Below, one piece after another: positions 1-15,006 of a stretch of DNA of 15,006 nt. This DNA is from Coemansia sp. RSA 922 (lineage: Eukaryota; Kickxellomycota; Kickxellomycetes; Kickxellales; Kickxellaceae). A model generated the notes under the pieces. It saw only the letters and a list, made by a program, of their open reading frames with translations. It was not told the DNA's origin and ran no database searches. Every line of letters starts with the position of its first letter. The first letter of the stretch is position 1. Position numbers and translations under genes: made by a program. The stretch spans positions 1 through 15,006 of the forward strand of contig JANBQS010000588.1 in assembly GCA_027577415.1 (NCBI GenBank). Direction: 5' to 3'.

Positions 1-238
1 AGTGACGCCCACCTTGTCCTTCGGGCTATTATTTCATTGCTTAGACCTTGCGCCAAAATAAATAATAATAAAAAAGGCCGATTGTAAAATAAAAATAAAA
101 AAAAAATCTTCTACTGGCCTATAACCGAGTGTGTTACTTAGTGAGTGTAGCGAGCAATAGCGTATAGAATATATAAGAAATATTAGCGTATGTAGAAGCG
201 AGAACAAGAATTTAACTCTGGAGGTCGACGGGCTAATG

Positions 239-246
239 TTTATATA
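239..246 (-). promoter_or_regulatory. TATA box (TATATAAA), leftward
   Basis: Perfect TATATAAA on the minus strand, about 110 bp downstream of a paired CGGGACAT(T/C)TGG repeat in the direction of transcription. No start codon with a useful frame follows inside the window, so the gene would lie off the left edge. Confidence 0.35.
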
Positions 247-350
247 GCCTTTTTCATGGCCCGTTTCCTTAGACGGAAGTACGCCTTTCCTGCTACCCTT
301 AGTGTCGCTGAGTCGAGCCCCATTATAGATGGGCAATCTCCTATCAGCGA

Positions 351-386
351 CGGGACATTTGGGCGTTGGGAGTCCGGGACATCTGG
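351..386. repeat. Paired 12-bp direct repeat CGGGACAT(T/C)TGG
   Basis: Two copies, 351-362 and 375-386, start to start 24 bp, 11 of 12 bases equal. The setting and spacing suit a binding site for a regulator, but no known factor is recognised. Confidence 0.4.
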
Positions 387-606
387 CAGATCTGTAGTGT
401 CGTTATGTAGGCCATTTGACTGATCATGTGGGCCGGCGCGCTGTCCTACGACGCATGTAACAAGCGCATGTACAGAGAAATGCCCATACTGCTATTCGCG
501 TCCACCAACATTGTCGGACACCAAAGAGTAACATGGATAGATGGAAAATATAATAAACATACATGCCATGTAAAATGGTCTTTTAAAAAATGGGGGGAAC
601 AGAGTA

Positions 607-3074
607 CTAGGTCGTATCTGCTCTGTTGACAGACTGGAACATTTGCAACAACTCAGTAGTAGCCTGCGAGTACGTGGGATGCGTCAGTGGCGTAGATGCT
701 GCGGGTAAAAATGACTGGGGACCGTTAATACCCGGCGTAATACCCATTGCAGTAGCCGCAGCAACAGCAGTGACGTCGCCATGGCCATTAGCAGCAGCAA
801 TCCACGAGCTCCACATATTAGTATCAACCCAATGTGGAGCCTTGGTCCGATCAGCAGGATCCATATACATATTCTGCGAGGCCTGACGCGGCTGGAGAAC
901 AGAGCCAGCCGAAAGAGGAGCTGCCAGGTTAAACATTGGAGGCTGATGGTTAGTAGGCATAGTGGATAGGAAACCCTCCATGGGACTGCCCGGGTTACTG
1001 GCGATAGGCGCGTCGTGTGGGTGGTCGTAGCTCACATGGTGTTTGAGGGCATTCGCGTCGCTGAAGGCCTGAGTGCAGCCGTATGCGGGACACTGGATAA
1101 TACTGTTGTTGTAAAGCGGCGCCTGGTTCTGCAGTTGATTAAGCTGGAGCGATGATACGAATTGACGCTGGTACCTGGGCCCAGCAGAGTTGGGCGCTAT
1201 GGGCTGAGCATCCTGTATGTTCGATGGCTGAGTGTGGAACTGGAACTGAGCGAGATCCGTTGGCTGCGGCGTGTAGAATCGCTGCTGGTGCGGCTGTGGG
1301 AATCCGTCATTCATCGACTGTCTGTTCTGAGTATCACTGGGAAATGGGAGCAAGCCCAATGCCGAAAACCCCTGCGTCCATGGCAACAGCCCCGACGGCT
1401 GGCCACCTGGGGCCTGGTTAGTGGCGGCCGACACTTGTTGCTGAATCTGCTGCTGCCGGTTGCGCTTGGACATCAAGGCGGTGGCTATCTGCGAGTGAGT
1501 GCCGGATTTAGATCCTGCGCTCAAAGTAGCCAGTGAATCTGGCGTTTCTCCGGTTGCCATGGAGGAAGGTTGAATAGTGCTGCTGCTGCTGCCACTGCTG
1601 GGCAAGGTTGCCACCGACGACAGGTCGAACGAGTCGGAACGCTGGCTGCGCGAGTAGTGCGGTCGACCATTCCTCATATCGTCTTCGCCGTCAATCGCAG
1701 CTGACTGGCTGCTTCCATCGCGTGGCACGTAGAAGGGTTCGGCCATCATGCTCTGCATCAACTGCATGTTGAGCGACATGTCCTGCAAGTAATTGGTGGC
1801 CGTAGAAGCATCACCCTCGTGTGCAGTAGAGTGCTGGGCAGTGTTGAGGTTTAGCTGGGCGTCATTTCCCGCTGCGGCTTGGCTCATCGCCTCAAGCATC
1901 ATCGATGCGGCTGCCGCGCCCATCGATTCGTTGGACATGGGGACATTAGAAACACCGAATGGCGTCATAGCATGAGCCTCAGTGCCATTACTCAGACCCA
2001 GGGCAAAATACGAGTTAATGTTGGGTTCGCCCCCGCTGGCGTTAATAAGAGCTGGAGCAGAAAGAAACGGTGCCGCTGTCGCTTGCAAAAACGGCTGGCC
2101 AGGCATGCCCTGGAGCATCAGACGCCGATGCGCCGCCTGCGGTACTGGTCCGCCGTGGGCTGACTGCCTCGCGCCATTAAGAGCCAGTCCCTGTGTGTCG
2201 TAGCCCATGGTGACAGGCGTCGTGATGCCGCTCTCAGGGATAGTCGGCATAGAGGCAAGAATACCAGCCTGTCCTGCGTCCATCGCAGCGCCCAGCACGT
2301 CGTTAATAGTCGGAGTATTCCAAAACGAGCCACTTGGGGAAATCTCCGTCGGCGTACCACGACCCGGCTTCACTCGGTTCGACGGCTTAATCGCTCTGCG
2401 AATCGGTCGTGGATGCTGCGCCGCTACGTGTTGCCGCAACCCGTACTCGCTATTAAACCTCGCCAAACAATCCACCTCAACACACTGCAAGACCGGTGAC
2501 CCCCCAATTCCGACAGTCTGCGAGGGAGAAGTCAACGCAAGCGCGCCACCCATGTCAGATATCGCCCCGTGGATAAGGTCTACGGCATTGCGCTCGGCCA
2601 TGACTACATCCGGTACGTCGTCTGAGACACTCTTTGGGCTGTCGCGCAACAAGTGGTTGTTGGACTTGCGTGACTGGAATATATGGTATTCAAGCCCACT
2701 GACATTTTTGTAGACGTGGTTACACTCTGCCATTGCACAACGGTATGGCTTCAACCCCTTGCTCGTCCCGCCTTCAGACCCATCGCTGTTTTGCGCAGAG
2801 GGATCTGGCTGGAGACCACCCACGTGTCCGACGTTGTTTAGCGAGGGAATCAGGCATGCCACCTGAGGATGGCTAAGCTTGAGATGCGAGTTTAGGCTGG
2901 TCGAGTCGGCAAAAGCTACATTGCAATGCTCGGGCGCCGCCGCGCAGCCATAGAGCTTTAGACCGAGGTGTTTCAAACGCAGACGCTGCTCCTCGGTGGG
3001 CGAAAACAACATCGAGGCCGAGCGCTTAGCGCCTCCTGACATACCTGACCGATGTGACGCAGAGTGCGCTGAAC
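607..3074 (-). other. Exon 2 of the Myb-C2H2 gene: four C2H2 fingers and Q/S-rich region
   Basis: Codes from codon 434 to residue 1255 and ends in TAG at 607-609. Finger ligands in whole-protein numbering: C477, C484, H497, H502 (an unusual six-residue gap between the cysteines); C546, C551, H564, H574 (nine residues between the histidines); C631, C636, H649, H654; and C1095, C1100, H1113, H1118. The second finger, with KPYRC and YKNVSGLEYH, resembles the Sfp1/JAZF1 kind of finger in which the last histidine lies further away. Between fingers 3 and 4 is about 440 residues of low-complexity sequence rich in S, Q, N, M and A, with short glutamine runs (RQQQIQQQ) and a serine run; this is typical of activation or condensate-forming regions. 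A basic MSKRNRQ string could serve as a nuclear localisation signal. Confidence 0.85.
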
Positions 3075-4515
3075 CTATCGAGTCAATAAATAAAGTTAGT
3101 AGTGTAAAACACCACATAAATAGAATATAGAGGAGCATACCCATGTCACATGAACACTGCCGTCAGCAGGCAAAAAGAATGTTCCATAGTGGAATATTTT
3201 TTCCAGTCAGCTTACCTTTTAGTTGAGAAGGGCTGCCAGCCATAGTGTGCTGGTCAGAAGGCATGAACAGAGCGCCCATTGTCTCTTGCGGTGGCGGACT
3301 AGCAAGCATATGATGTGTAGCTGACGACAGTAGCTGCGGAGGCGCATAGCTCCTCATCAGACCCAGCGAGTCCCCCTCATCAGCGATGCCAAATGACGCA
3401 ATAGGACCGGCAGGAGCGTCAACTGGGCCGGCTAACGGCGATGGGTAGATCTCTTGGCTTTGGCGCTGAGCCTTCAGCGACATCTTTTTCTGGCCCTCAT
3501 CGGTCTTTAGATTATCGATAATCTCCTGCTGCTGATGCAGTCTAGAGCGCTGAGCGGTTTTCCTGCGATTGACGGACTCTGTAACAGTAGCCAGGGTTTC
3601 GGTCAAGTCGTCAGGCGTGATGGGACCGGATTTTCGTTCCTTTTGCGAGATAATGCGCTGAATCTTTCGCCACCGGTTTCGACAATGGAGTCCTGGACGG
3701 CCGTGAAAGAATGTGGCGATTTTCTGCCACTGCGTCCCGTATTCCTTGTACTTATCCAAAAGTAGTCGGTCTTCTTCGGGTCTCCATTTACCTCGGTCGA
3801 TTTCGGGGTCAAGCGATTCTCTCCACCGCTTGGCACATTGGTCATCAGTACGACCTGTGATGCCCTCAGCGACGCGCGACCACTGAGCAGGGAACTGCAT
3901 GACACGCTGCCGCAATAAAGCGTCTTCCTCGCTAGTCCACGGGCCCTTGTGCAAAGACGGGTCAAGCGAATGGAACCAGCGCTTACGACAGCTCTTGTTA
4001 GTACGACCCGGTACCAGCATAGCAATGCGGGGCCAAGACTCGGTATTGGGTCCGTAAACGCGCACGCCGACCATCAAGAGACTGTCTTCCTCGCGAGTCC
4101 ATGCGGCGCGCAGTTTGGGAAATGTGGCTTTGGAGCCAGACTCCTCACTATACGAGCACTCTACGTGGCCAATGTAGACGTCGATACCGTGCTCCAGCAT
4201 GTTTTCAGAGTCGAGAACCCGCAGGATTTCTATTGCCTGGTCTTTGGCCACGCGTATCTGCTCTTGCATCGTTGCTCCGCTAAGCGAAATAGTAGCAGCA
4301 CTCGAGTTGGCCAATGCGTCGAGCTGAGATGGCAACTGAGGCCGCTTACTCGCTGGGCGTATCCGAGGTATAGCAGGAGAGTCGCTGTCGGCCTCTTCCA
4401 TATTGGAGTCATGTGCATCTAATGACTTTCGGAGTGTCTTGTTCGGATGTGCGAACTGTCCGGGAAGGTAGTGGTCGTCTTCGTCGGACCCGGTGACCAT
4501 ATTCTGCATCGACAT
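607..4515 (-). CDS. Myb (R1R2R3) - C2H2 zinc-finger transcription factor, two exons
   Basis: Predicted sequence-specific nuclear transcription factor of 1255 residues, coded by join(607..3074, 3216..4515) on the minus strand. The two open frames are usually read as separate genes, but the Myb frame stops at 3163-3165 and the zinc-finger frame opens at 3144. Eighteen bases cannot hold both a eukaryotic terminator and a promoter. A 141-nt intron with consensus sites joins them in frame: the split codon is G (3216) plus GT (3074-3073), a glycine. Order of domains: acidic N-terminus, three Myb repeats (about 136-285), a basic Q-containing stretch (about 315-350), three zinc fingers (477-654), a long Q/S/N/M-rich region likely to be disordered and regulatory, then a fourth zinc finger (1095-1118). 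The start is taken as the ATG at 4515, because the open frame beyond it has only a TTG. The family is clear, but the exact orthologue and target genes are not recognised. If the intron is wrong, the fallback is two adjacent proteins. Confidence 0.72.
3075..3215 (-). other. Spliceosomal intron joining the Myb and zinc-finger exons
   Basis: On the minus strand the intron begins GTAAGC at 3215-3210. It has a perfect CTACTAAC branch site at 3102-3095, with the branch A about 21 nt from the acceptor, and ends GATAG at 3075. It is AT-rich compared with its flanks. Splicing preserves the reading frame (phase 1). The intron holds in-frame stops for the exon 1 frame, and the first 23 residues of the unspliced zinc-finger frame are a hydrophobic string that looks like translated intron. 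A second donor-like GTATGC lies inside at 3140-3135, and a poorer acceptor, GGCAG, near 3158. Confidence 0.8.
3216..4515 (-). other. Exon 1 of the Myb-C2H2 gene: triple Myb repeat
   Basis: Codes residues 1-433 and the first base of codon 434. The three helix-turn-helix repeats are marked by regularly spaced tryptophans: W139, W161, W180 in repeat 1; W193, W212, W231 in repeat 2; W244, W263, W282 in repeat 3. The recognition-helix regions read GRTNKSCRKRW, GRTDDQCAKRW and GRPGLHCRNRWRKI. Three complete repeats in tandem are the layout of animal c-Myb and of several fungal Myb proteins, and bind DNA through repeats 2 and 3. Repeat 1 has a slightly longer first spacing because of the insertion around PNTES. 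Residues 15-50 and the region after 290 are polar and probably disordered. If the intron is retained, translation would end at 3163 and give a 450-residue Myb-only protein. Confidence 0.88.
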
Positions 4516-4828
4516 ATCTACTCTGAACAAAGGGGAAAAAAGAACAGAATGGAAAAATGAGTGTGAGGATATTTTTTGTTTCCAAAATGCAGGAGCGTGA
4601 AAGAAAGAAACACTCCCCCTTTAGGAGCAGGGGATATGAAATGAAATTTTTCAGAGGATAATGATCGGAGAAACGACAAAAAGTGCTCGGCGAGCGTCGG
4701 GGGTGGAGAGCATAGAGGCATCCCACCTGCAGCCACATGTCCATCCCGTCCAAGCGTGAGAAGAACATTAAGGGACAAACATTCAAAAAAGAAAAACTGT
4801 TGCTTAGTCCCAGTGCTCAGAATGTGCC

Positions 4829-4856
4829 ACACGTAGACGCAATTTTACACGTACGT
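4829..4856. promoter_or_regulatory. Paired ACACGTA elements with ACGT cores
   Basis: ACACGTA is found at 4829-4835 and 4847-4853, 18 bp apart; the second lies in the palindrome ACGTACGT (4849-4856). ACGT cores are bound by bZIP factors. They lie about 320 bp upstream of the Myb-C2H2 start. Confidence 0.35.
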
Positions 4857-5608
4857 AAGGGGCGGTGGCGGTAAGGATTTTTACTCGCAAAGAGTTGGAC
4901 ATTGAGCAATGCGTCGATATCCTCCACTGAGAGAGTGGGAGGGAGATGGTGTCCAGGGACATGGAAGGGAAGGGGGGAGGGAGGAATAGACTCAGTAGGC
5001 ATCGGATGTTTGGCAAAAAAGAGGACAATGGACAAACATATTCCACCCCCCCCCCTCGGTCACCAACAAGAGAGGAAAAAAAAAAGTTCATTTGTCGGTA
5101 TTTCGATCTGTACCTTTGGTGGTGGACGCAGGTATCAAGTCATGCAGGCAAACGGCACACAACCCAAGTGTGTCCGATATTTACAAACGTCTTACTATCG
5201 GTATTGATAAACAAGCACCGCAAGTTCGATCAAAGAGAATCCTCGGCTACGCTCAATGACACAGAAAACAAGGATCTAGATACGTGCTACCGCGGTTCTC
5301 GTACCAGCCGATATAATAAATAAAATAAAAAAGGAGAGGCGACGCCAAGCCTTCTGTGTAGTCGGTTTCAAACTGAAGCTGATTCAGTGCAAGTGAATTA
5401 CGAGCGAGCACCAAAAGCACACACAGGCAGTGGCAAGTGTAAATGAAAAAAGTGCGTCTTTGTATAAAGCGAGGGCTATACACAGAAAGAAAAAAGTATA
5501 CAAGAGGAGTGAAAAAAATTAATATAGTAGACAAGAGAGAGAGAAAAAAGAGTAGAAAAAAAAAAGGTCTGGCTAGGAAGTTTACAACTTGTGGACCTAG
5601 TATGAGAG

Positions 5609-5636
5609 GGAGCCAATCGCAGGCCGCGGAGCCAAT
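5609..5636 (+). promoter_or_regulatory. Tandem CCAAT boxes (GGAGCCAAT twice)
   Basis: GGAGCCAAT occurs at 5609-5617 and 5628-5636, 19 bp apart, close to two helical turns, and about 320 bp upstream of the ATG at 5955. CCAAT is the site of the HAP/NF-Y complex in fungi. A TATA-like TTAAAA follows at 5665-5670, so this may be the core promoter of the membrane-protein gene. Confidence 0.5.
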
Positions 5637-5678
5637 GGTGTGGATTGACCCGCCCTTTCTTGCCTTAAAAGCCCTCCT

Positions 5679-5690
5679 GCTCAGCTGAGC
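5679..5690. promoter_or_regulatory. 12-bp palindrome GCTCAGCTGAGC with E-box core
   Basis: Perfect 12-bp inverted repeat around CAGCTG, just after the TTAAAA. Such a site suits a dimeric factor such as a bHLH protein. It could also affect the transcription start, which is expected nearby. Confidence 0.4.
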
Positions 5691-5954
5691 GAAAAAAAAA
5701 GCCAACTCAGGAGGATATCAGGAGTGCAGAAAGGAAGAAGCTTTTTTTTTTTCCCCTTTCGGGCTTTTTGCGCTGTGTGACCCGAGCGCGAACAGAGTCT
5801 GTGCGCCTTCATACCTTTTCTTTCTTTCTTTCAAGTTCTTGCACCTCGCCCACTTTACATACACTTTACATATCTTTATCTTTGACCGCCACCAGTACTC
5901 TCCAGATACCCAGTGCTCCATAGACGCCATTATTTTTCTTTCTAATTATAGACA

Positions 5955-6986
5955 ATGTCAAAGGGCTTCGCGAGCCGAAAGACGAGCCGGCGAGTCGCCG
6001 CACTATCACCAACCAGCAGCGATTTTCCACCACGCGGTGGCTCAACGAGCCCATCAGCCGACAACAATGAAGGTCGGTCTTCTTTCCAGTCAACTCGTTC
6101 TTCAATTTCAAATCCCCTGTCACGTCTCGATTCCCTCCGCACACACACCACTGAATTTTATAGTGCCAGTAGTCAGTTCTCCGCAAACACCAATAATTCT
6201 GCCACGTCGTTTCACACCGCCACCTCCAAAGAATCAACAGCCGGTGCCCTTGAAGCCGGTCTTGCCACACCACCTTTTGAGCCCGTGGCAATGTCACATC
6301 ACACATTAAACAGCAACAGCACAATTTCGCGAAGCACTAATGGCCGTGCCGGACCAGCTGGACCATTTACGCAATTAGCGGATGAAAGCGAGGATGGTGA
6401 TTTTGCCATAGCTATGGCTAGACAATACGTGCTGGACGCCGAGGCTGCTGGTTCAGCGTCGCCGTCACATAGGTCACGTAAGGGCACAGATGCCAGCCGG
6501 ATGCCGACAGACCGTAGTCTGGGCGCGGACGTCGCTACGGCTTCCTCCGAAGATTACCCGCCACAGGTACCGCCGCTCAGACACATGCAAGGCCGTGATG
6601 ACGATAGTACGAGCGAAAGACACCATGAACTGACTCCAGAGCTAACTGGATTCGGCAAAGAGGGGCGGGCGCTGAGTGAGCAGTTGCGCGACGAGGAAGT
6701 CGAAGATGATGCCAACGAGGCACGCCACTTTGTGTCGACACGCATTCGCTATCCGCCACCCAAATACCAAGTGAAGTCCGACTCGTCTATACCTGTGGGC
6801 GCAGTGCTGTTCCTGTTTGGGTTCCTGATACTCCCATTATGGTGGGTCGGTGCCGTGTTCCCGCGCTCCCGCGATGAGGAGGTTGTAAGGGTATGGCGCA
6901 AGTATAACGCCCTAATGACCCTGGTATCTCTGCCCTTGTTGGGCCTGTTCTTGGCCTTGGGCGGCTGGCAGGCTACGCACCATTGA
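5955..6986 (+). CDS. Fungal two-pass membrane protein with PPxY motif (uncharacterised)
   Basis: A 343-residue protein with a good start context (ACAATGTC) and a single exon. Residues 1-255 are rich in S, T, P, N and charged residues and are probably disordered and cytosolic. A short helix-like string (DFAIAMARQYVL, 149-160) stands out from the polar background. Near the membrane is PPPKY (267-271), a PPxY motif of the sort bound by WW domains of Rsp5/Nedd4 ubiquitin ligases. The C-terminus is a hydrophobic hairpin: helix 1 about 280-302 (with LPLWWVG), a basic/acidic loop with FPRSRDEE and WRKYN, and helix 2 about 319-338. No signal peptide is visible, so the N-terminal part should face the cytosol. 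Hairpins with an LPLWWxG motif recall uncharacterised fungal membrane proteins, but this is from memory and I assign no family. An adaptor role for a ubiquitin ligase is inference. Confidence 0.85.
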   Translation: MSKGFASRKTSRRVAALSPTSSDFPPRGGSTSPSADNNEGRSSFQSTRSSISNPLSRLDSLRTHTTEFYSASSQFSANTNNSATSFHTATSKESTAGALEAGLATPPFEPVAMSHHTLNSNSTISRSTNGRAGPAGPFTQLADESEDGDFAIAMARQYVLDAEAAGSASPSHRSRKGTDASRMPTDRSLGADVATASSEDYPPQVPPLRHMQGRDDDSTSERHHELTPELTGFGKEGRALSEQLRDEEVEDDANEARHFVSTRIRYPPPKYQVKSDSSIPVGAVLFLFGFLILPLWWVGAVFPRSRDEEVVRVWRKYNALMTLVSLPLLGLFLALGGWQATHH

Positions 6987-8090
6987 GCCACTAAAGGCGG
7001 AAAAAAAGGAGGCGTTTTTCTCTTCTTTTTTTTTTTGAATAATACACACTCACCCTGATATGTTCCCTGGACCGTTCAGGCACATGTGGTCTTTTCCTTT
7101 TATGGCCACGAGACCTGTTTGGCAACTCAATATCAGACTTTGAAACAATGCGTCAAACAACTGTCGTCGTTCGTTCGTTATTTTTATATTATCAATGGCA
7201 GGATGACGGTCCCAGACCAGTTTCTCGGCCCGCCCTCGCATCCCGGACTCCCCGAGCACATGGGCAATTTTCGAGTGGCTTTTTTTATATTTGGAAAGTG
7301 GAGACCTCGCTGCGCAGTCCTCAGTTTGGGAAAAAAATCACTGTCATCAGCCTCCTTTTTTGTATATTTGTTTTGGGCATGCAAAAAATTGGTTTCCTCC
7401 TCTCCCCCCTCCCACCCGGTCCTGAATTCCATGAGACCTAATTTGGTTCAGACGCATCATTTGTGGATGGCCGATATACGTTTAGGGACCGAGAGGCCCT
7501 CCTGAAGTATAAAGCCGCTGGTGTGACGGAAACTCATCTCTCCTCTTTTTTTTCCGTTTTCTAGTCATATTCTTTTTTTTTTATACGAACATTCTTTTAA
7601 CGTATCTTATGATCTAAGGGGGTTATCACTGTAAACGTTGTCTACTATTATTTCTTGCTATTGCGTCTCGCCGTCATCTCGCTATTCTTTCTACTTTTTT
7701 TTTAACTATTGGTAAGATATCATGATTCCCTTTTTTATGATAAATATTTTTTTGAGGGAGCTTGTTTGCGCCACTCTCCACGTCCCCCGCTTACTGTCCC
7801 CAGTTTTTTTGTTGTTGTTGCTGTTAGGGCAATTAAAGTCTACTGCTCTAATGACTAAAGCGTGCTATTCAAAACTCTTCCTGGCGTGACCAAAAAGGAA
7901 GATCTATAAATGAACAGAACTGATTACAATTTTTTTCTCTTTTCTTACCACGTTTCTCTCTCTATCCCCAACCCCATCAACCTCACACGTTTTCTCCTTT
8001 ACTAAAAGTTATCTTTTTTATTTTATTTATTGCATGTACTAGCCTTTTTTTTATTTATTGACCTTTTTTTCCTTTTTAAGACATAAAACA
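6987..8090. other. Intergenic region between the two plus-strand genes
   Basis: 1.1 kb, T-rich, no credible gene. It should hold the 3' end of the membrane-protein transcript on the left and the promoter of the 183-residue gene on the right. Features seen: TATAAAG at 7508-7514, TATAAA at 7905-7910, a short TTG/CTG triplet run near 7809-7823, and CT-rich tracts from about 7930 to 8000. A 139-codon plus-strand frame at 7086-7505 has no domain-like sequence and I do not accept it as a gene. Confidence 0.6.
7905..7910 (+). promoter_or_regulatory. TATA box for the 183-residue gene
   Basis: TATAAA 181 bp before the ATG at 8091, followed by a CT-rich stretch typical of transcription starts in filamentous fungi. 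A second TATAAAG at 7508 is much further away and may belong to another start. Confidence 0.45.
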
Positions 8091-8642
8091 ATGGAGCCCG
8101 GCTTCAGGTACAGCGTATACGAAACAACAACCCGAGTCAGTTCACCAGCAATGACGTCAAGCAAGGGGTTTCTAGCCACACTCAAGCGTCTGTTCTGTTT
8201 CGGAACAACACGCCATACAACACCATCTCTACGACTAGCCAGCAGCGCATCTCATATGAACTTGGCACTAGCTGTCGCCGAACAATACGTATTGGTTTCT
8301 TTAGACAACCCATTAGACGACACAGACCAGACAGTTGCCAATACGCCGGAAACGGGTACGCCTACTATTCAGTGTTCGCCTATGAGCGGTATTAGCGATA
8401 ACACATTGCGTACCAATGTTTACTGTGATACTGTGGGACGCAAAGAAAGTAGGCCGTCGAGAGGTCGTCGTAGTTTGGCAATGGGCTCGCTGTTCCCTAA
8501 ATCTTTGCGCTCTACACCTGTGTCGCCTCCTAGCTATCGCTCATCGACTATCTGCGACAACCACCAGTCGGATTCGCAACTTGACGATTGTGCTATTAGC
8601 CCAGCTATGGTGGCTGCGCGCGAGAACCCCTTGTTCTGTTAG
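8091..8642 (+). CDS. Hypothetical protein, 183 residues, with QYVL helix and PPxY
   Basis: I do not recognise a family. The ATG at 8091 is chosen because it has a strong fungal context (AAAACAATGG); the frame is open further upstream only through a TTG and pyrimidine-rich leader sequence. The protein is polar, rich in S, T, R and P, and has no clear membrane span. A basic patch with aromatic residues (LKRLFCF, 31-37) is followed by the helix-like NLALAVAEQYVL (57-68). Near the C-terminus there is PPSY (146-149), a PPxY motif. The helix and PPxY both recur in the membrane protein encoded just upstream, which makes it possible that this is a shortened relative lacking the membrane hairpin. A TATA box at 7905 and a CT-rich leader support it being a real, separately transcribed gene. 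It is the weakest protein-coding call among the main genes. Confidence 0.65.
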   Translation: MEPGFRYSVYETTTRVSSPAMTSSKGFLATLKRLFCFGTTRHTTPSLRLASSASHMNLALAVAEQYVLVSLDNPLDDTDQTVANTPETGTPTIQCSPMSGISDNTLRTNVYCDTVGRKESRPSRGRRSLAMGSLFPKSLRSTPVSPPSYRSSTICDNHQSDSQLDDCAISPAMVAARENPLFC

Positions 8643-8838
8643 CTCACCCCATTTTTTTTTCTCACTCACTTGTACTATATCTCTATAACGATCGACACAC
8701 ATTTTTTATCTCCTTTATCAGTTTCAGAAATAATGGTCAACATTGTTTAAAATAGTGGGCAACCAAGTAGTGTTTTGCCATTATATTACCTTCACAGAAA
8801 AAGGAAATGCACAATACTCCTCTTTATAATTAACAATA
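8643..8838. other. Convergent 3' ends
   Basis: 196 bp between the stops of two converging genes. A/T-rich with no open frame of interest. Both transcripts must end here, so overlapping 3' ends are likely. Confidence 0.5.
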
Positions 8839-11319
8839 TTAAGCAAAAGGGTCAAAATCGCCTAGATTCGCAGCTTTTCCGCCCACATGTTTCTGTGACG
8901 CCAATGGCGGTGAAGACAAGAGAGCGGGTTTGGGCAAAGGGGCCAAAGGCAACGTCAAAGGATTCGTGGCTGCAGATACTTGCATACTGCCAAAGGCACC
9001 ATTAACGCTATAATTTGCCTTTCCTGGTGGAGGCGGTGGCAATGGCGCAGGACTACCTAGTTTGGTAGCACCACCAAGCTTTCTCGCAGACTGTGTGGTG
9101 GCGGACAGTGGCGTCGTCGTACGCAATCGAGACGATAGTGGCGCTGTACTAGGAGCAGGTCGGGGTGCAGGTAAAAAGGAACTGAATGATCCGAAATCAT
9201 CGTCATCGGGGGTGGCGGAACTTTCGGCAAAATCGACTTCTACAGCGACTAGACGATTCTTGCTCGCTACCGGGCTGCTACCAAATGTCGGCGTGTCCCA
9301 TTCCCATCCCGACGCTACTGGTGTTTTCGTCGAGGTCTTTTCTGCCAACGGGTTTGTCAGCAGCGTAGTCTTTGGACGTCTCGGCGACGAACTACCCATG
9401 ACAAGCGACTCGAATCGAGTATCGCCAGACCCATTTTGAACCACACTATTGTCGAGTTCCCAAGTATCACTAGTATCGACCACTTTTACCGTCGTAGTAC
9501 CGCGATCCATTTTTTCCAAATACTTGATCTGCTCCCTCTCAACTCTCTGCTCCAATTTCCTAATAGCCACCAAAAAGCGCTTAAACTGATCCACGTCCAA
9601 TCTGTTATTCATAGCTTGGGTCCATAGTGCCGGTAAAATCTCCTTTGCGACCGCGCTTCTCTCGACGAAAACCATACCCATTTCCTCGTACATCTCTAGC
9701 ATAGCCATTATAACCCCGTGCTCCTGAGTCTTTGTACGTCGCAGTAAGGGTATTACGTGTTCGACGATAGTTTGTTCGCCCAAAGATTTCATCATACCGT
9801 GGAGACATTTAAGCGCACAGATCTTACGCGATAGAACCGACGCCTTAGTGTAGAGATGTTGGACACGCGGCAATACTTGTGTTTTAAGGTCGTTAGAATC
9901 CATACTATCTGCGATCGCCGGTACTGCCTCCAGGGCTTTATCTTGGACCTGTGGTACACTGCTCATAAGCGCGGAATAAACAACAGGTAGGACGTCGGAG
10001 CGGAATACGTCGGCACGAGCCTTACGTTGTAAAAGAGGCAGATTGTCCAGAATAACAATACTAGTTTGAGGCGGAGGATCAACGACAGAAAATACTTGCT
10101 TGAGTCCCGGCATTGCCAGTATTGCAAAACTCTCCTCTGTGAGTTTCTCAATAATAAGAAACACATTAGGCATCGTATAGGGCAGTAGTGCGTGGTCACT
10201 AGTCTGGTCTAAAAGCGCAGGCAAGATTTTACGACGCAATACACGGTCGGGGAACTTTGACAGGACTCTGGGGAGACCGCGCATAAAGGATATTTTCTGG
10301 TCCATTGGTTGTTCAGCTAGGGCCTCCAAATATCTTAGGGCGGCGACCAAAATATCGTCAAAAAATGAGCTACGCTGGAACTCATTCAGTGACAAACGAC
10401 TCCCAGGGTCAACAGCGAGCAGGGCCAAAACAGGGTCTCTGAGTTGTTCGGGTAGTTTAGTCAGTGCGTTTGAAGACGATAGTCGATCGAGTTCACGTCG
10501 GTACGCTCCAACATCATTACGACAGTCCAAAGGCGATCGACCGTTGAAATATGTGGCTGTAGCCAGACATCCCAGCGAGAACAAGTCACTAGCACAATGA
10601 CTCTTTCCATCAAATACGACCTCAGGTGCCAGAAAATCCAAACGCCGCTGGGTCTCCGCAGACATCTGATAGTCATACTGGTACTCGCCACTGCCAGCGC
10701 CCTGAGCCTGTGCAAATCCAAAACCACCCAGTTTCCAATCGCCCTTTGCATTTATCAACACGCTAGCAGGCACCAAATTGCCATGCACGATATGCGCATC
10801 GTCGTGGAGAAACGCTAGGACCTTGGAGATCTGAAGTAACCCCTTTTGGATCTCAAAGTCATCCAAATCAAATACGTCGCCGTCCACTCTATACCCGCCC
10901 GTCGCATGCTGCTGATGATCAGGGTTAACCAAGTCATCAAGACTAGCCAACACCTGCTCAGTGACAAACATCAACGACCCCCGAGATTCCTCCAGTGGCT
11001 CAATGACTTGCAATACAGACGGGTGTCGTAACCGGGTGAGCTGGCTAGCCTCATTCTTCAAAAGGTCAATAACCACCGCTTGGTCTCGTGCCGCGAGCAA
11101 TTGCCGGTTAATACCGCGTTCGAAATACCGCTTATCGAATACCCACACAGTCACCGTTTGCTCTGTCTTGGATCGCACGGCTTTATACAGAGACCAGAGT
11201 CCAGACTGGCCAAAGGGTTTATGACTGAGATTGAATACATAGTCCCGACTGATTTTGCTTTGAATTGAACTGGCTGCCGACGACGCCAAGTCTCGCAGTT
11301 TGCTAATATACGAATCCAT
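8839..11319 (-). CDS. SCYL2-like (SCY1 family) pseudokinase of clathrin-coated vesicles
   Basis: An 826-residue protein that matches the SCY1-like 2 (CVAK104) layout: an N-terminal kinase-like domain (about 30-325), a helical HEAT-repeat region (about 325-600), and a low-complexity tail. The strings FDKRYF, LTRLRHPSVL and PLEESRGSLMF follow the family closely. The kinase fold is degenerate. The HRD catalytic loop is HGN (179-181), the usual asparagine is S186, and the DFG metal-binding motif is GFG (199-201), so catalysis is unlikely. Family members act at the trans-Golgi and endosomes, binding clathrin and AP adaptors. The tail ends in DPF (823-825), a classical adaptor-appendage motif, one residue from the C-terminus. 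It also has a proline run (PPPPPP) and acidic FG-type strings (DDDDFGSF). Single exon. Other SCY1-like members (SCYL1, SCYL3) are less likely because of the PLEESR region. Confidence 0.9.
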   Translation of the reverse strand: MDSYISKLRDLASSAASSIQSKISRDYVFNLSHKPFGQSGLWSLYKAVRSKTEQTVTVWVFDKRYFERGINRQLLAARDQAVVIDLLKNEASQLTRLRHPSVLQVIEPLEESRGSLMFVTEQVLASLDDLVNPDHQQHATGGYRVDGDVFDLDDFEIQKGLLQISKVLAFLHDDAHIVHGNLVPASVLINAKGDWKLGGFGFAQAQGAGSGEYQYDYQMSAETQRRLDFLAPEVVFDGKSHCASDLFSLGCLATATYFNGRSPLDCRNDVGAYRRELDRLSSSNALTKLPEQLRDPVLALLAVDPGSRLSLNEFQRSSFFDDILVAALRYLEALAEQPMDQKISFMRGLPRVLSKFPDRVLRRKILPALLDQTSDHALLPYTMPNVFLIIEKLTEESFAILAMPGLKQVFSVVDPPPQTSIVILDNLPLLQRKARADVFRSDVLPVVYSALMSSVPQVQDKALEAVPAIADSMDSNDLKTQVLPRVQHLYTKASVLSRKICALKCLHGMMKSLGEQTIVEHVIPLLRRTKTQEHGVIMAMLEMYEEMGMVFVERSAVAKEILPALWTQAMNNRLDVDQFKRFLVAIRKLEQRVEREQIKYLEKMDRGTTTVKVVDTSDTWELDNSVVQNGSGDTRFESLVMGSSSPRRPKTTLLTNPLAEKTSTKTPVASGWEWDTPTFGSSPVASKNRLVAVEVDFAESSATPDDDDFGSFSSFLPAPRPAPSTAPLSSRLRTTTPLSATTQSARKLGGATKLGSPAPLPPPPPGKANYSVNGAFGSMQVSAATNPLTLPLAPLPKPALLSSPPLASQKHVGGKAANLGDFDPFA

Positions 11320-11448
11320 TCGAGGGACGGGAAATATAATAATAAAACGAGTTGTATACAGGTGAAAAAATAAAATAATAAATTTTTGAAGAGAAGCTAG
11401 AAAGAAGAAAAAGAAGTGGGGGGGTTAATTGACGCGTGCGTGTCCTCT
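11320..11448 (-). promoter_or_regulatory. 129-bp spacer with promoter of the SCYL2-like gene and MluI-type box
   Basis: Only 129 bp separate the stop of the NBAS/Sec39-like gene from the start of the SCYL2-like gene on the same strand. The spacer has ACGCGT (11432-11437), equal to the MCB element bound by MBF at G1/S genes, then a CT-rich run and A/T-rich sequence, but no clear TATA box. The terminator of one gene and the promoter of the next must overlap here or reach into coding sequence. Confidence 0.45.
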
Positions 11449-14400
11449 TTAGACGCCATCAAGGTCGTCGGCATCCAAATCGACATCATCCTCGCCCCAT
11501 CCAGCCTCGGCCTCTTCTTCGTCAAAGTCTTGGCACTCGCCGACACTAGCCTTGGCAGGCTCATTAGGCAGTTCATCGTCGTCTAGTTCCACGTCGCTTT
11601 CGCCCCATCCAGCCTCCGGCTCAACCGCACTAGAATCGACACCATCTTCAAGCTTAGAGACCGTGGTAGCACCCACTTCATCGCCCAACACTACTTTATC
11701 CAGATGTACCAGCCACATAGCAACGGTTCGCTTCCGATAAAGGTACCGATAAAGTACAGGTACTCCCAGAAACTCGTAAACCCACGCAAGTGCCGTATCG
11801 CCCATTCCAATCTCAGCCACTGTGTGTACAGTCCGACGGAACAGCTCGTGAATGGGCTCAGTCCCATGTCCACGTATGAGCATTGGAGCAGATAACAGAG
11901 CCTGGCAGTCGTCGTGTTGGATCCTCTCCCGATTATGAAACAGAGTTTCCGCCAATGCCGCTAGTAATGGAGGACTAGCCAAGCATGCCGAAACATAGCC
12001 GTGAATCATGATGGCCAAGTGCAATGACGCACAGCTCAGGACTGTGTCACGCGCACGCGCAAGCTCCTCTGGGCCAACAGCAGCCGATAATGAGCTTTCT
12101 GGAACGACATCACCGGCAGTCTGAGACTCCGCCGCATGTTCGTCGTCGTCAAACGGTACGTCGTCAATAGCCCACGGATCCGCCTCCTCCTCATCGTCGT
12201 CCTCATTACCATCGGGGTGCACAGCAATAGCATTGGATTCGACGGTATCTGGCGCTGAGATCATGACGTAGACGACTTGCTCCATACACCGCTCAGCCCA
12301 CGCTCCATCAGGGTACGTCAGCCCAAGCACAGCCAGAGCAGCAGCCATAGTCGGAGTGCTTGGCACCTCATCCAACAGCGCATCAAACACCAGGTCTCCA
12401 ACCTCCGTCGTGAACTGATCTGGATACTCAATGAGTGCCACCAGAACTCGCGCTGGCCGCTTATTCCGAACAGCCCACTTTATCAGCGCCGCCCAGCACT
12501 CCCCAGCCTGCCCAACATCCAGTCCACAGCCAACCCACTTGACAAGCAATAGCACCAAAGTATCGACTTGACCGTCAGCCGCAGCAATGTGCGGCTCAGT
12601 TCTTTCGAGCAATTGCATCCAGACATTGCACAAGTCGGCATACTCCCGTCCACCAGACTCATCCAACTCAAGGCCCCAGAGTTTATCAGCCAAAAGTCGG
12701 AACTGCAAATAGTCCGAGTCACCAACACCCCCCGTCTTCTTACCCAGTGCAGCGCGCTCCGAGATATCGCCAGCCACAGACGCCACTCGGTGCAGATCAG
12801 ACGAGCAGTACCTGGTCAGCAAGTCCAAGAGTGCCAGTTTAGCCGAACTACCGATCGCTGACATCTCAGCGTACCTACCATGGATGATATCCGAGATGTT
12901 GGCTCCAAACTCACGTCTGAAGCGTACCAAAACCTCGCCCAACGCGCTATCGCCATAATCAAACGAGCATAATTCAAGCGGCGGCTCTGCCATAGCGACC
13001 ACGCGTCTCGCCAACATATCATCGCCCTCGGTTTCGTCGGCCACGCGGCTTAGCGTGCGAGTATACACCTGCGCCAACCCAGGAACCACATTAGAATCGC
13101 CATCCCACTGAGTGACAAGTCGCTTGGTGCACATATACGTCTGGCAAACAAAGTAGGCCGCCACTTCATCAGCAATCATGTCACCCAAGACCGCAAAGCA
13201 CCGCGCACACACGTCATCTCCACCATCGTCGCTGCTCAGCACAAACTCTCCACTGGCTACATCAAAGGAGCGCGCCCAGCGTTCAGGCAACTTTGTAAAC
13301 GTAAATGGGTCTCGAAGATTCTCGACATCAGATAAGAAAGTGAGGTAGGCATGAGCGGCTCCCAATTTCCTAGAATACTCTGTCTCGGCCTGGCCGATCT
13401 CGGCAAACCGATCCTGGCACCACGTCGTAGCCTTCAACCGGCACTCCAATCCCAAAGACTTGGCAATATCGCCGTCAAACGACATGTAGCTAACGAGTTC
13501 AACCAGATCAGCAACTTCTGACAATACTGGGAGACAAGTAGCCAGCAGGTTTTGGAATAGCGATGGCAATACACTACCATCTCTAGGTCCAGACCTCAGC
13601 ACGTCCTCCAGCACCCAAAGGCACAACTTGCTAGCCAGCTCGTCAGATCTCCACCTATCCGTACCTTCGTGACTCTCGGCGCCATCGATCCGAGGCAAAG
13701 ATGCGAGTTTGGCCAGGTCCGGAGCCAGATCTACCAGTGACATGACCGTAGCCTCCGAGAGCAAAGATTTGAGCCCCTTACGACACTCAGTTTTACTCGC
13801 GCTCACCGCACGCACCAACCGAGCGAAATCAACGTCTCTAAGCACCCTCGACTGCTTAATACGCCGAATAATGCCGACCCGCGTCAGAGCCTGCTCCGCA
13901 CTCTTCGCGTCGCCGCTGGCGTCCAGGCATCTAGCATAAAACGCGTAAAATGGCTCAAGGGCCTCATAATTGGTGCAATCCAGCTGTGGCAAAACATGAG
14001 TAGCCAGCACGTCGCATGCCGCCTGCGGGTATCGCCCAACAATATCAGACTCGACCTTACGTCGGAACTCCATGCCAGCCTCACTAGATGGCTCCTTGGC
14101 AGTGGTAAGTGCGAATTCAAGCCACGACATCAACAGGCTGCACCGCGCGTCAGATTCGCCGGTCGACGAAGAGGGCTGGCGATCCGCAAGTCTTATGCAC
14201 CGCTTGATGATAGCCGGGTCGAATGTGCGCATAGACTCGGGGTCAACTGTCTGAGTATCCTGAGTAGCAGAGCCATTGTCGTCAGTCTGAGCCGGGCCGC
14301 CAATGAGCACCTGCCGAACGAGTACTACGGGGTCATCGCAGCTTCCAGCAGACAAATCCCAAGGCGTACCAGCACTGTCGCCAACTACTTTCGACTGAAT

Positions 14401-15006
14401 GGCGTTCCACAGCCTGAGCAACTCGGCAATATCGCTCGTAGGACACAGACTAAGCGCCAACGCCACAACCTCGAGCTGCTTCTCAACGACCGCCATACTA
14501 CCGCCGTCCTCTTTACTCCATGCCCGTGCCAAATTGACACTACTAGTCCAAATAGCTCCAATGGCGCGCACATCCACCGACTGCTTTCCATCCGCGCCGT
14601 CATCAGCCAGCATCATCGCCGACCGATGCGCCTCGGCACTACGCAGGGCCTTGCTCAGCGTCGTGCGGGCATTAATCAACTGGCGCGCAAAGTTATAGCC
14701 CTCGGCATAATCGCCAGCATCCACCGCCGACTGGAGCAAAAGAGCGGCAGTAAAGCCCTCCGAAATCGAACGTACACCCAGGTCACGCCTTGTGCCATGG
14801 GTATCCATCTCGGGACTACCATAGCCGTCCACAGGTGCGCCAGCCAGCACTGATATTTCAAGCAGCTTGCCGGCTATTTCGCGCACAATACGCTGCTTCT
14901 TGTAGGCACCCGGGTAACTGGCCAACACCCGCTTGATTAGCACGTAGGGGTCAGTAGCCAGTCGAATCTCAATAGGGTACATACCAGCAGCCGCACTGGC
15001 TCTTTG
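11449..15006 (-). CDS. NBAS/Sec39-like ER-Golgi tether subunit (5' end beyond window)
   Basis: The frame is open to the window edge: eight codons precede the ATG at 14982 without a stop, so this is the C-terminal 1185 residues of a longer protein. The first 450 residues after that ATG look like the Sec39 domain: DPYVLIKRVLASYPGAY, the pair GDYAEGYNFARQLI, and the ALSLCPTSDIAELLRLWN string typical of NBAS. Sec39/NBAS is the helical solenoid subunit of the Dsl1 (NRZ) complex with Dsl1/ZW10 and Tip20/RINT1, which captures COPI vesicles at the ER. The rest is alpha-helical with acidic insertions. The C-terminus is highly acidic, with tryptophans W937, W1126 and W1162 (numbered from the ATG at 14982) in DPWAIDD, GWGESD and GWGEDD. 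The related kinetochore protein KNTC1/ROD is a less likely alternative. Stop TAA at 11449-11451. Confidence 0.75.
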   Translation of the reverse strand, partial: QRASAAAGMYPIEIRLATDPYVLIKRVLASYPGAYKKQRIVREIAGKLLEISVLAGAPVDGYGSPEMDTHGTRRDLGVRSISEGFTAALLLQSAVDAGDYAEGYNFARQLINARTTLSKALRSAEAHRSAMMLADDGADGKQSVDVRAIGAIWTSSVNLARAWSKEDGGSMAVVEKQLEVVALALSLCPTSDIAELLRLWNAIQSKVVGDSAGTPWDLSAGSCDDPVVLVRQVLIGGPAQTDDNGSATQDTQTVDPESMRTFDPAIIKRCIRLADRQPSSSTGESDARCSLLMSWLEFALTTAKEPSSEAGMEFRRKVESDIVGRYPQAACDVLATHVLPQLDCTNYEALEPFYAFYARCLDASGDAKSAEQALTRVGIIRRIKQSRVLRDVDFARLVRAVSASKTECRKGLKSLLSEATVMSLVDLAPDLAKLASLPRIDGAESHEGTDRWRSDELASKLCLWVLEDVLRSGPRDGSVLPSLFQNLLATCLPVLSEVADLVELVSYMSFDGDIAKSLGLECRLKATTWCQDRFAEIGQAETEYSRKLGAAHAYLTFLSDVENLRDPFTFTKLPERWARSFDVASGEFVLSSDDGGDDVCARCFAVLGDMIADEVAAYFVCQTYMCTKRLVTQWDGDSNVVPGLAQVYTRTLSRVADETEGDDMLARRVVAMAEPPLELCSFDYGDSALGEVLVRFRREFGANISDIIHGRYAEMSAIGSSAKLALLDLLTRYCSSDLHRVASVAGDISERAALGKKTGGVGDSDYLQFRLLADKLWGLELDESGGREYADLCNVWMQLLERTEPHIAAADGQVDTLVLLLVKWVGCGLDVGQAGECWAALIKWAVRNKRPARVLVALIEYPDQFTTEVGDLVFDALLDEVPSTPTMAAALAVLGLTYPDGAWAERCMEQVVYVMISAPDTVESNAIAVHPDGNEDDDEEEADPWAIDDVPFDDDEHAAESQTAGDVVPESSLSAAVGPEELARARDTVLSCASLHLAIMIHGYVSACLASPPLLAALAETLFHNRERIQHDDCQALLSAPMLIRGHGTEPIHELFRRTVHTVAEIGMGDTALAWVYEFLGVPVLYRYLYRKRTVAMWLVHLDKVVLGDEVGATTVSKLEDGVDSSAVEPEAGWGESDVELDDDELPNEPAKASVGECQDFDEEEAEAGWGEDDVDLDADDLDGV
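11492..11616 (-). repeat. Direct repeat coding the duplicated GWGE acidic motif
   Basis: A 17-nt string is repeated exactly at 11492-11508 and 11600-11616, 108 bp (36 codons) apart and in the same frame. It codes EAGWGE and is followed each time by an acidic string, (S/D)DV(E/D)LD. The identity at DNA level suggests a fairly recent tandem duplication within the gene end, or selection on a very constrained codon string. Confidence 0.75.

Follow-up and report, generated by a model that had tools for sequence, protein, structure and literature searches.

Proteins that combine two classes of DNA-binding domain have been described for fungi. According to PMC5415576, dual factors with C2H2-like and homeodomain-like domains occur in 115 (60%) of 191 fungal genomes; dual factors in general account for about 1% of the average fungal repertoire and are exceptionally rare in Saccharomycotina and Taphrinomycotina. 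The word Myb does not occur in that paper. A second point of comparison is the zinc finger protein Sfp1, which is homologous to JAZF1; both associate with NuA4/TIP60 (as given in the parts of PMC10119425 and PMC13254600 used here). Among the titles and abstract beginnings of open-licence papers listed in literature searches on the pairing, none describes a fungal family with three Myb repeats and C2H2 fingers. Here we analyse a stretch of 15,006 nucleotides (nt) from Coemansia sp. RSA 922 (GCA_027577415.1, contig JANBQS010000588.1, positions 1 to 15,006 of the forward strand), called the window in the following. Two neighbouring minus-strand frames of the window, one coding for Myb repeats and the other for C2H2 fingers, are most likely two exons of one gene for a Myb-zinc-finger regulator.

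Gene model and closest relatives

When a GT-AG intron of 141 nt is removed, the two frames join in phase to a single frame of 1255 amino acids (aa). The join lies one base into a codon, which is shared as Gly434 (G from exon 1, GT from exon 2). Position 4515 is the first in-frame ATG of exon 1, and the first 20 residues encoded from there match those of the closest relative. Donor, branch, acceptor, intron length, glycine codon and protein length had all been proposed by a sequence-only reading of the window, and each of them was recovered at exactly the proposed position (Table 1).

For the joined protein 7992 candidates were scored; 147 proteins matched with an expect (E) value of 1e-5 or better, and the best 120 of these were listed. 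The top match is the 1256 aa hypothetical protein GGI08_000058 (P0001) from Coemansia sp. S2 (Kickxellomycotina), with 98% identity over 100% of the query. It has the same Myb repeats and fingers and the same junction residues at the same offset (427), and the intron has no counterpart in it at this junction; it differs in being one residue longer. Among the 120 proteins listed, 28 were aligned (rows 1-27 and row 71, from Kickxella; rows 28-70 and 72-120 are outside this count). By profile search the Myb triple and the finger module occur within one protein in 25 of these 28, in the same order, Myb triple first. The other three (P0002, P0027 and P0071) are devoid of Myb and are all deposited as partial, as are some of the 25; one of the three, P0002, still covers the exon junction. 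Because the relatives hold both halves in single polypeptides, we consider the two frames to be one spliced gene, as the sequence-only reading had claimed; relatives that are always two unlinked genes were not what the search returned. The accompanying expectation that automated annotation could easily split such a gene does not apply to the nearest deposited relatives, which are joined.

The intron length being a multiple of three, exons 1 and 2 share one reading frame, and their open frames abut at a stop codon. Without splicing, translation of exon 1 would run into an in-frame TGA at 3165-3163 and end at residue 450, past all Myb repeats. The gene might thus have two outputs: the Myb-finger protein from spliced mRNA and, from mRNA that retains the intron, a Myb-only protein of 450 residues, a potential competitor of the former for its sites. 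An in-frame stop within an intron is ordinary, and we regard two regular outputs as improbable; if the intron is occasionally kept, the short protein would arise as a side effect.

Table 1 Features of the Myb-zinc-finger gene in the window (positions on the forward strand; residues of the joined protein). Ligand conservation refers to nine aligned proteins.
Feature	Positions	Strand	Description
Exon 1	3216..4515	-	1300 nt; residues 1-433 and first base of codon 434; holds the Myb region
Three tandem c-Myb-like Myb repeats	3655..4101	-	residues 139-287; three PF00249 matches over cut-off
Intron	3075..3215	-	141 nt; GTAAGC donor beginning at 3215, CTACTAAC branch (3102-3095, 20-27 nt from the intron end), TAG acceptor ending at 3075
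Exon 2	607..3074	-	last two bases of codon 434 to stop; four C2H2 fingers, long low-complexity linkers
Finger 1	2869..2946	-	residues 477-502; C-x6-C-x12-H-x4-H; ligands invariant in 9 of 9
Finger 2	2653..2739	-	residues 546-574; C-x4-C-x12-H-x9-H; YKNxxGLxYH signature, Sfp1/JAZF1-like; ligands invariant in 9 of 9
Finger 3	2413..2484	-	residues 631-654; C-x4-C-x12-H-x4-H; ligands invariant in 9 of 9
Finger 4	1021..1092	-	residues 1095-1118, near the C-terminus; best PF00096 stretch; ligands invariant in 9 of 9

Myb repeats and zinc fingers in this and other fungal proteins

The three Myb repeats postulated from the sequence each exceed the cut-off of Pfam model PF00249 (57.2, 50.9 and 47.2 bits; 131.8 bits for the whole protein), and the Myb profile of the family scores 247.2 bits on exon 1. 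The nearest solved structure is c-Myb (PDB 1h88, chain 1h88_C, E 1.5e-30), which also has three tandem repeats and aligns with the Myb triple from end to end. The 159-residue chain compared is without fingers, and its recognition-helix residues differ from those of the window protein. The target site of c-Myb is therefore not to be taken over for this protein. When the Myb triple of an Umbelopsis protein was searched against the RSA 922 genome, the window locus was the best match with 73% identity (8e-76), followed by a locus with 42% (3.5e-27).

Among the finger models of Pfam, PF00096 scores 29.3 bits on the whole protein (cut-off 25.2), with residues 1094-1118, that is finger 4, as its best stretch. 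The identification of fingers 1-3, which are sub-threshold in Pfam, rests on their conserved ligands in relatives. None of the 16 zinc ligands varies among the nine aligned proteins, which are that of the window, seven from Coemansia and one from Mycoemilia. Fingers 1-3 have 12 ligands, and in an alignment of 11 proteins of greater diversity nine of these do not vary (two in finger 1, three in finger 2, all four in finger 3), two hardly vary (both in finger 1), and one, the final histidine of finger 2, is not conserved. On this basis the count of four C2H2 fingers given by the sequence-only reading stands.

A finger profile was built from nine relatives outside Kickxellomycotina. On exon 2 alone it scores 58.5 bits, compared to 4.2 bits for the best of 500 shuffles. 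Most of this is due to fingers 2 and 3 (40.5 bits in one match), with 9.2 bits for finger 1 and 8.2 for finger 4; fingers 1 and 3 are weak individually. The finger module lies downstream of the Myb repeats in the same predicted polypeptide, as it does in the family. Solved structures were searched for the first two fingers, and the best match (E 0.03) was no clear relative. Fingers 3 and 4 are separated by about 440 residues, and residues 661-1090 consist to 64% of Q, N, S, G, P, T and A.

The sequence-only reading had called the pairing of Myb and C2H2 domains rare. When an alignment of 11 diverse relatives was used as the query of a further search, 287 proteins reached an E value of 1e-10 or better; 120 of them were listed. 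For 156 fetched proteins we scored Myb as present below E 1e-10 and fingers below E 1e-5. Both parts were found in 149; three have Myb only (P0047, P0113, P0119) and four have fingers only (P0002, P0027, P0071, P0156). Because all but P0156 were retrieved by Myb-bearing queries, Myb-less relatives are under-represented in the figure of 149 of 156. A search for such relatives with the finger module from Saitoella covered 102 candidates, gave two matches, one of them the query itself, and was uninformative. Nine of the 156 are seeds of both profiles, including those from Saitoella, Cyathus, Coniophora, Syncephalis, Glomus and Endogone; the fingers of these six are directly visible in the alignment of 11 proteins. 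By a script count Myb comes first in 148 of the 149 two-part proteins. The exception, P0127, has a finger match of -0.1 bits ahead of Myb, and its best finger match follows Myb. In the 92 further proteins listed for the first search (rows 28-120 without 71), a regular expression found a C2H2 finger of common spacing in 85 and a YKN-type finger in 37.

The matches listed come from, among others, Mucorales, Umbelopsis, Endogone, Mortierella-type fungi, Glomus, Rhizophagus, Syncephalis, Dimargaris, Basidiobolus, Saitoella, Cyathus and Coniophora. Like the window protein, other members (e.g. from Umbelopsis, Endogone, Glomus, Syncephalis, Saitoella and Coniophora) have three Myb repeats followed by a three-finger module, but they are often shorter (from 390 aa) and have other linkers. 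Most of the relatives listed, among them P0001, are deposited as hypothetical proteins. Two bear labels, 'Bas1p' in Rhizophagus and 'myb-like dna-binding protein bas1' in Lichtheimia, from which we draw no functional meaning. Judged by these protein sequences, the pairing is widespread in fungi and not rare. The window protein itself combines two classes of DNA-binding domain, with Myb and C2H2 both over the Pfam cut-offs. Myb falls under the Homeodomain-like class (IPR009057); the frequency of the broader class of dual factors cited at the outset likewise speaks against rarity.

Evidence on both sides

Several observations weigh against reading the locus as one gene for a Myb-zinc-finger regulator. 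The proteins of the relatives are themselves gene predictions and give support only. The second copy in the assembly (C74) begins at codon 631, and thus it is no test of the intron. Taken by themselves, the splice motifs do not stand out from chance and are uninformative: a pattern of donor GTA[AT]G, branch CTAAC (used in place of the longer CTACTAAC) and acceptor YAG with intron-like spacing occurs once on the plus strand and three times on the minus strand of the window, while 200 dinucleotide-preserving shuffles have a mean of 1.975 per strand, with at least one occurrence in 84% of them. Fingers 1-3 are below the Pfam cut-offs, as are the other Pfam finger models, and the window locus is absent from the genome-wide list of PF00096 matches (36 matches, E 0.001). 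When an Umbelopsis finger module is searched against the RSA 922 genome, another frame, on C197, comes first (E 7.7e-8 and 1.1e-7), and the window gene is only third (E 4.0e-6, finger 2 only). Against the finger profile, the two fingers of the C197 frame reach 37.3 and 39.2 bits. As C197 matches first, finger similarity alone is no proof of common gene descent. Finally, binding of DNA and of partners by the window protein is a prediction.

The chance level of the motifs would suit two separate adjacent genes, one for a Myb factor and one for a C2H2 factor, and so would the two long open frames, 485 and 851 aa in length, that border on a single TGA. The start of the second gene would then have to be the ATG at 3144, which is separated from the TGA by the 18 base pair gap between the frames but lies inside the intron. 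With the motifs at chance level, the one-gene case rests on homology and not on the motif, and the homology goes against two genes: both halves are in one protein in all aligned relatives but the three partial ones, and the order of Myb and fingers is nearly constant. We thus consider two separate genes to be extremely improbable. It is highly probable that one two-exon gene encodes the 1255-residue protein, a predicted transcription factor with a Myb triple, three clustered fingers and another one close to the C-terminus.

The C197 frame (L018 152-1966) codes for 604 aa with two YKNxNGLKYH fingers and has no Myb match among the 57 Myb matches listed in the genome. From its finger pattern we take it to be Sfp1-like. 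Finger 2 of the window protein resembles the YKNxNGLxYH signature of Sfp1/JAZF1-type proteins as seen in C197, but its second histidine follows after 9 residues and not after 4. Presumably, the Sfp1/JAZF1 family is defined by paired YKNxNGLxYH fingers and the lack of Myb repeats. The window protein, with one such finger plus Myb repeats, does not belong to it. Since Sfp1/JAZF1 have this kind of finger too, the distinguishing mark of the family described here is the order of fingers and Myb triple.

The resemblance to Sfp1 allows another view of the fingers, namely that they mainly contact a chromatin coactivator, with DNA recognition left entirely to the Myb repeats. The signature of finger 2, the association of Sfp1 and JAZF1 with NuA4/TIP60 and the long distance between fingers 3 and 4 are in line with this, but which part of Sfp1 contacts NuA4 is not stated in the parts of PMC10119425 and PMC13254600 used here. 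We regard a mainly coactivator-binding role of the fingers as possible, if on the unlikely side.

Proposed role and genomic surroundings

The window protein most likely belongs, as an uncharacterised member, to an old family of fungal proteins and is, as its domains suggest, a promoter-binding regulator anchored by the Myb repeats. In the nucleus the Myb repeats would bind a promoter element and the fingers would add a second contact, either to DNA or to a coactivator. Between fingers 3 and 4, the stretch rich in Q, N, S, G, P, T and A may serve as a flexible and possibly activating linker.

Elsewhere in the window, the minus-strand region 8839-15006 codes for a kinase-like protein (PF00069) with weak HEAT-type matches and for a Sec39-domain protein that runs past the window edge. 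On the plus strand, a frame of 344 aa with hydrophobic C-terminal stretches (5952-6986) gave no match in Pfam at E values up to 1, and this frame and the plus-strand frame at 8043-8642 show no similarity to each other (E 3.8). Several Myb loci occur twice in the genome (C384/C803, L001/L002; C428/C608, L006/L007; the window and C74, L010). Three duplicate pairs that were compared have 98.5%, 94.1% and 94.4% identity over 3138, 3152 and 2362 aligned bases. In this respect the assembly looks like a mixture of two haplotypes or of two closely related strains.

A rather unlikely and tentative scenario is that an ancestral fungal gene joined a c-Myb-type triple to Sfp1/JAZF1-like fingers before the split of Mucoromycota, Zoopagomycota-type fungi and Dikarya. 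It would have been kept since then as an uncharacterised regulator which links the site choice of Myb to the recruitment of a growth-type coactivator, and in Coemansia the boundary intron, with its length divisible by three, could switch between the full and the Myb-only form.

In summary, at the level of sequence the question of the two frames is settled in favour of one gene. Should the fingers work like those of Sfp1/JAZF1, this would be a conserved family of growth or metabolism regulators.
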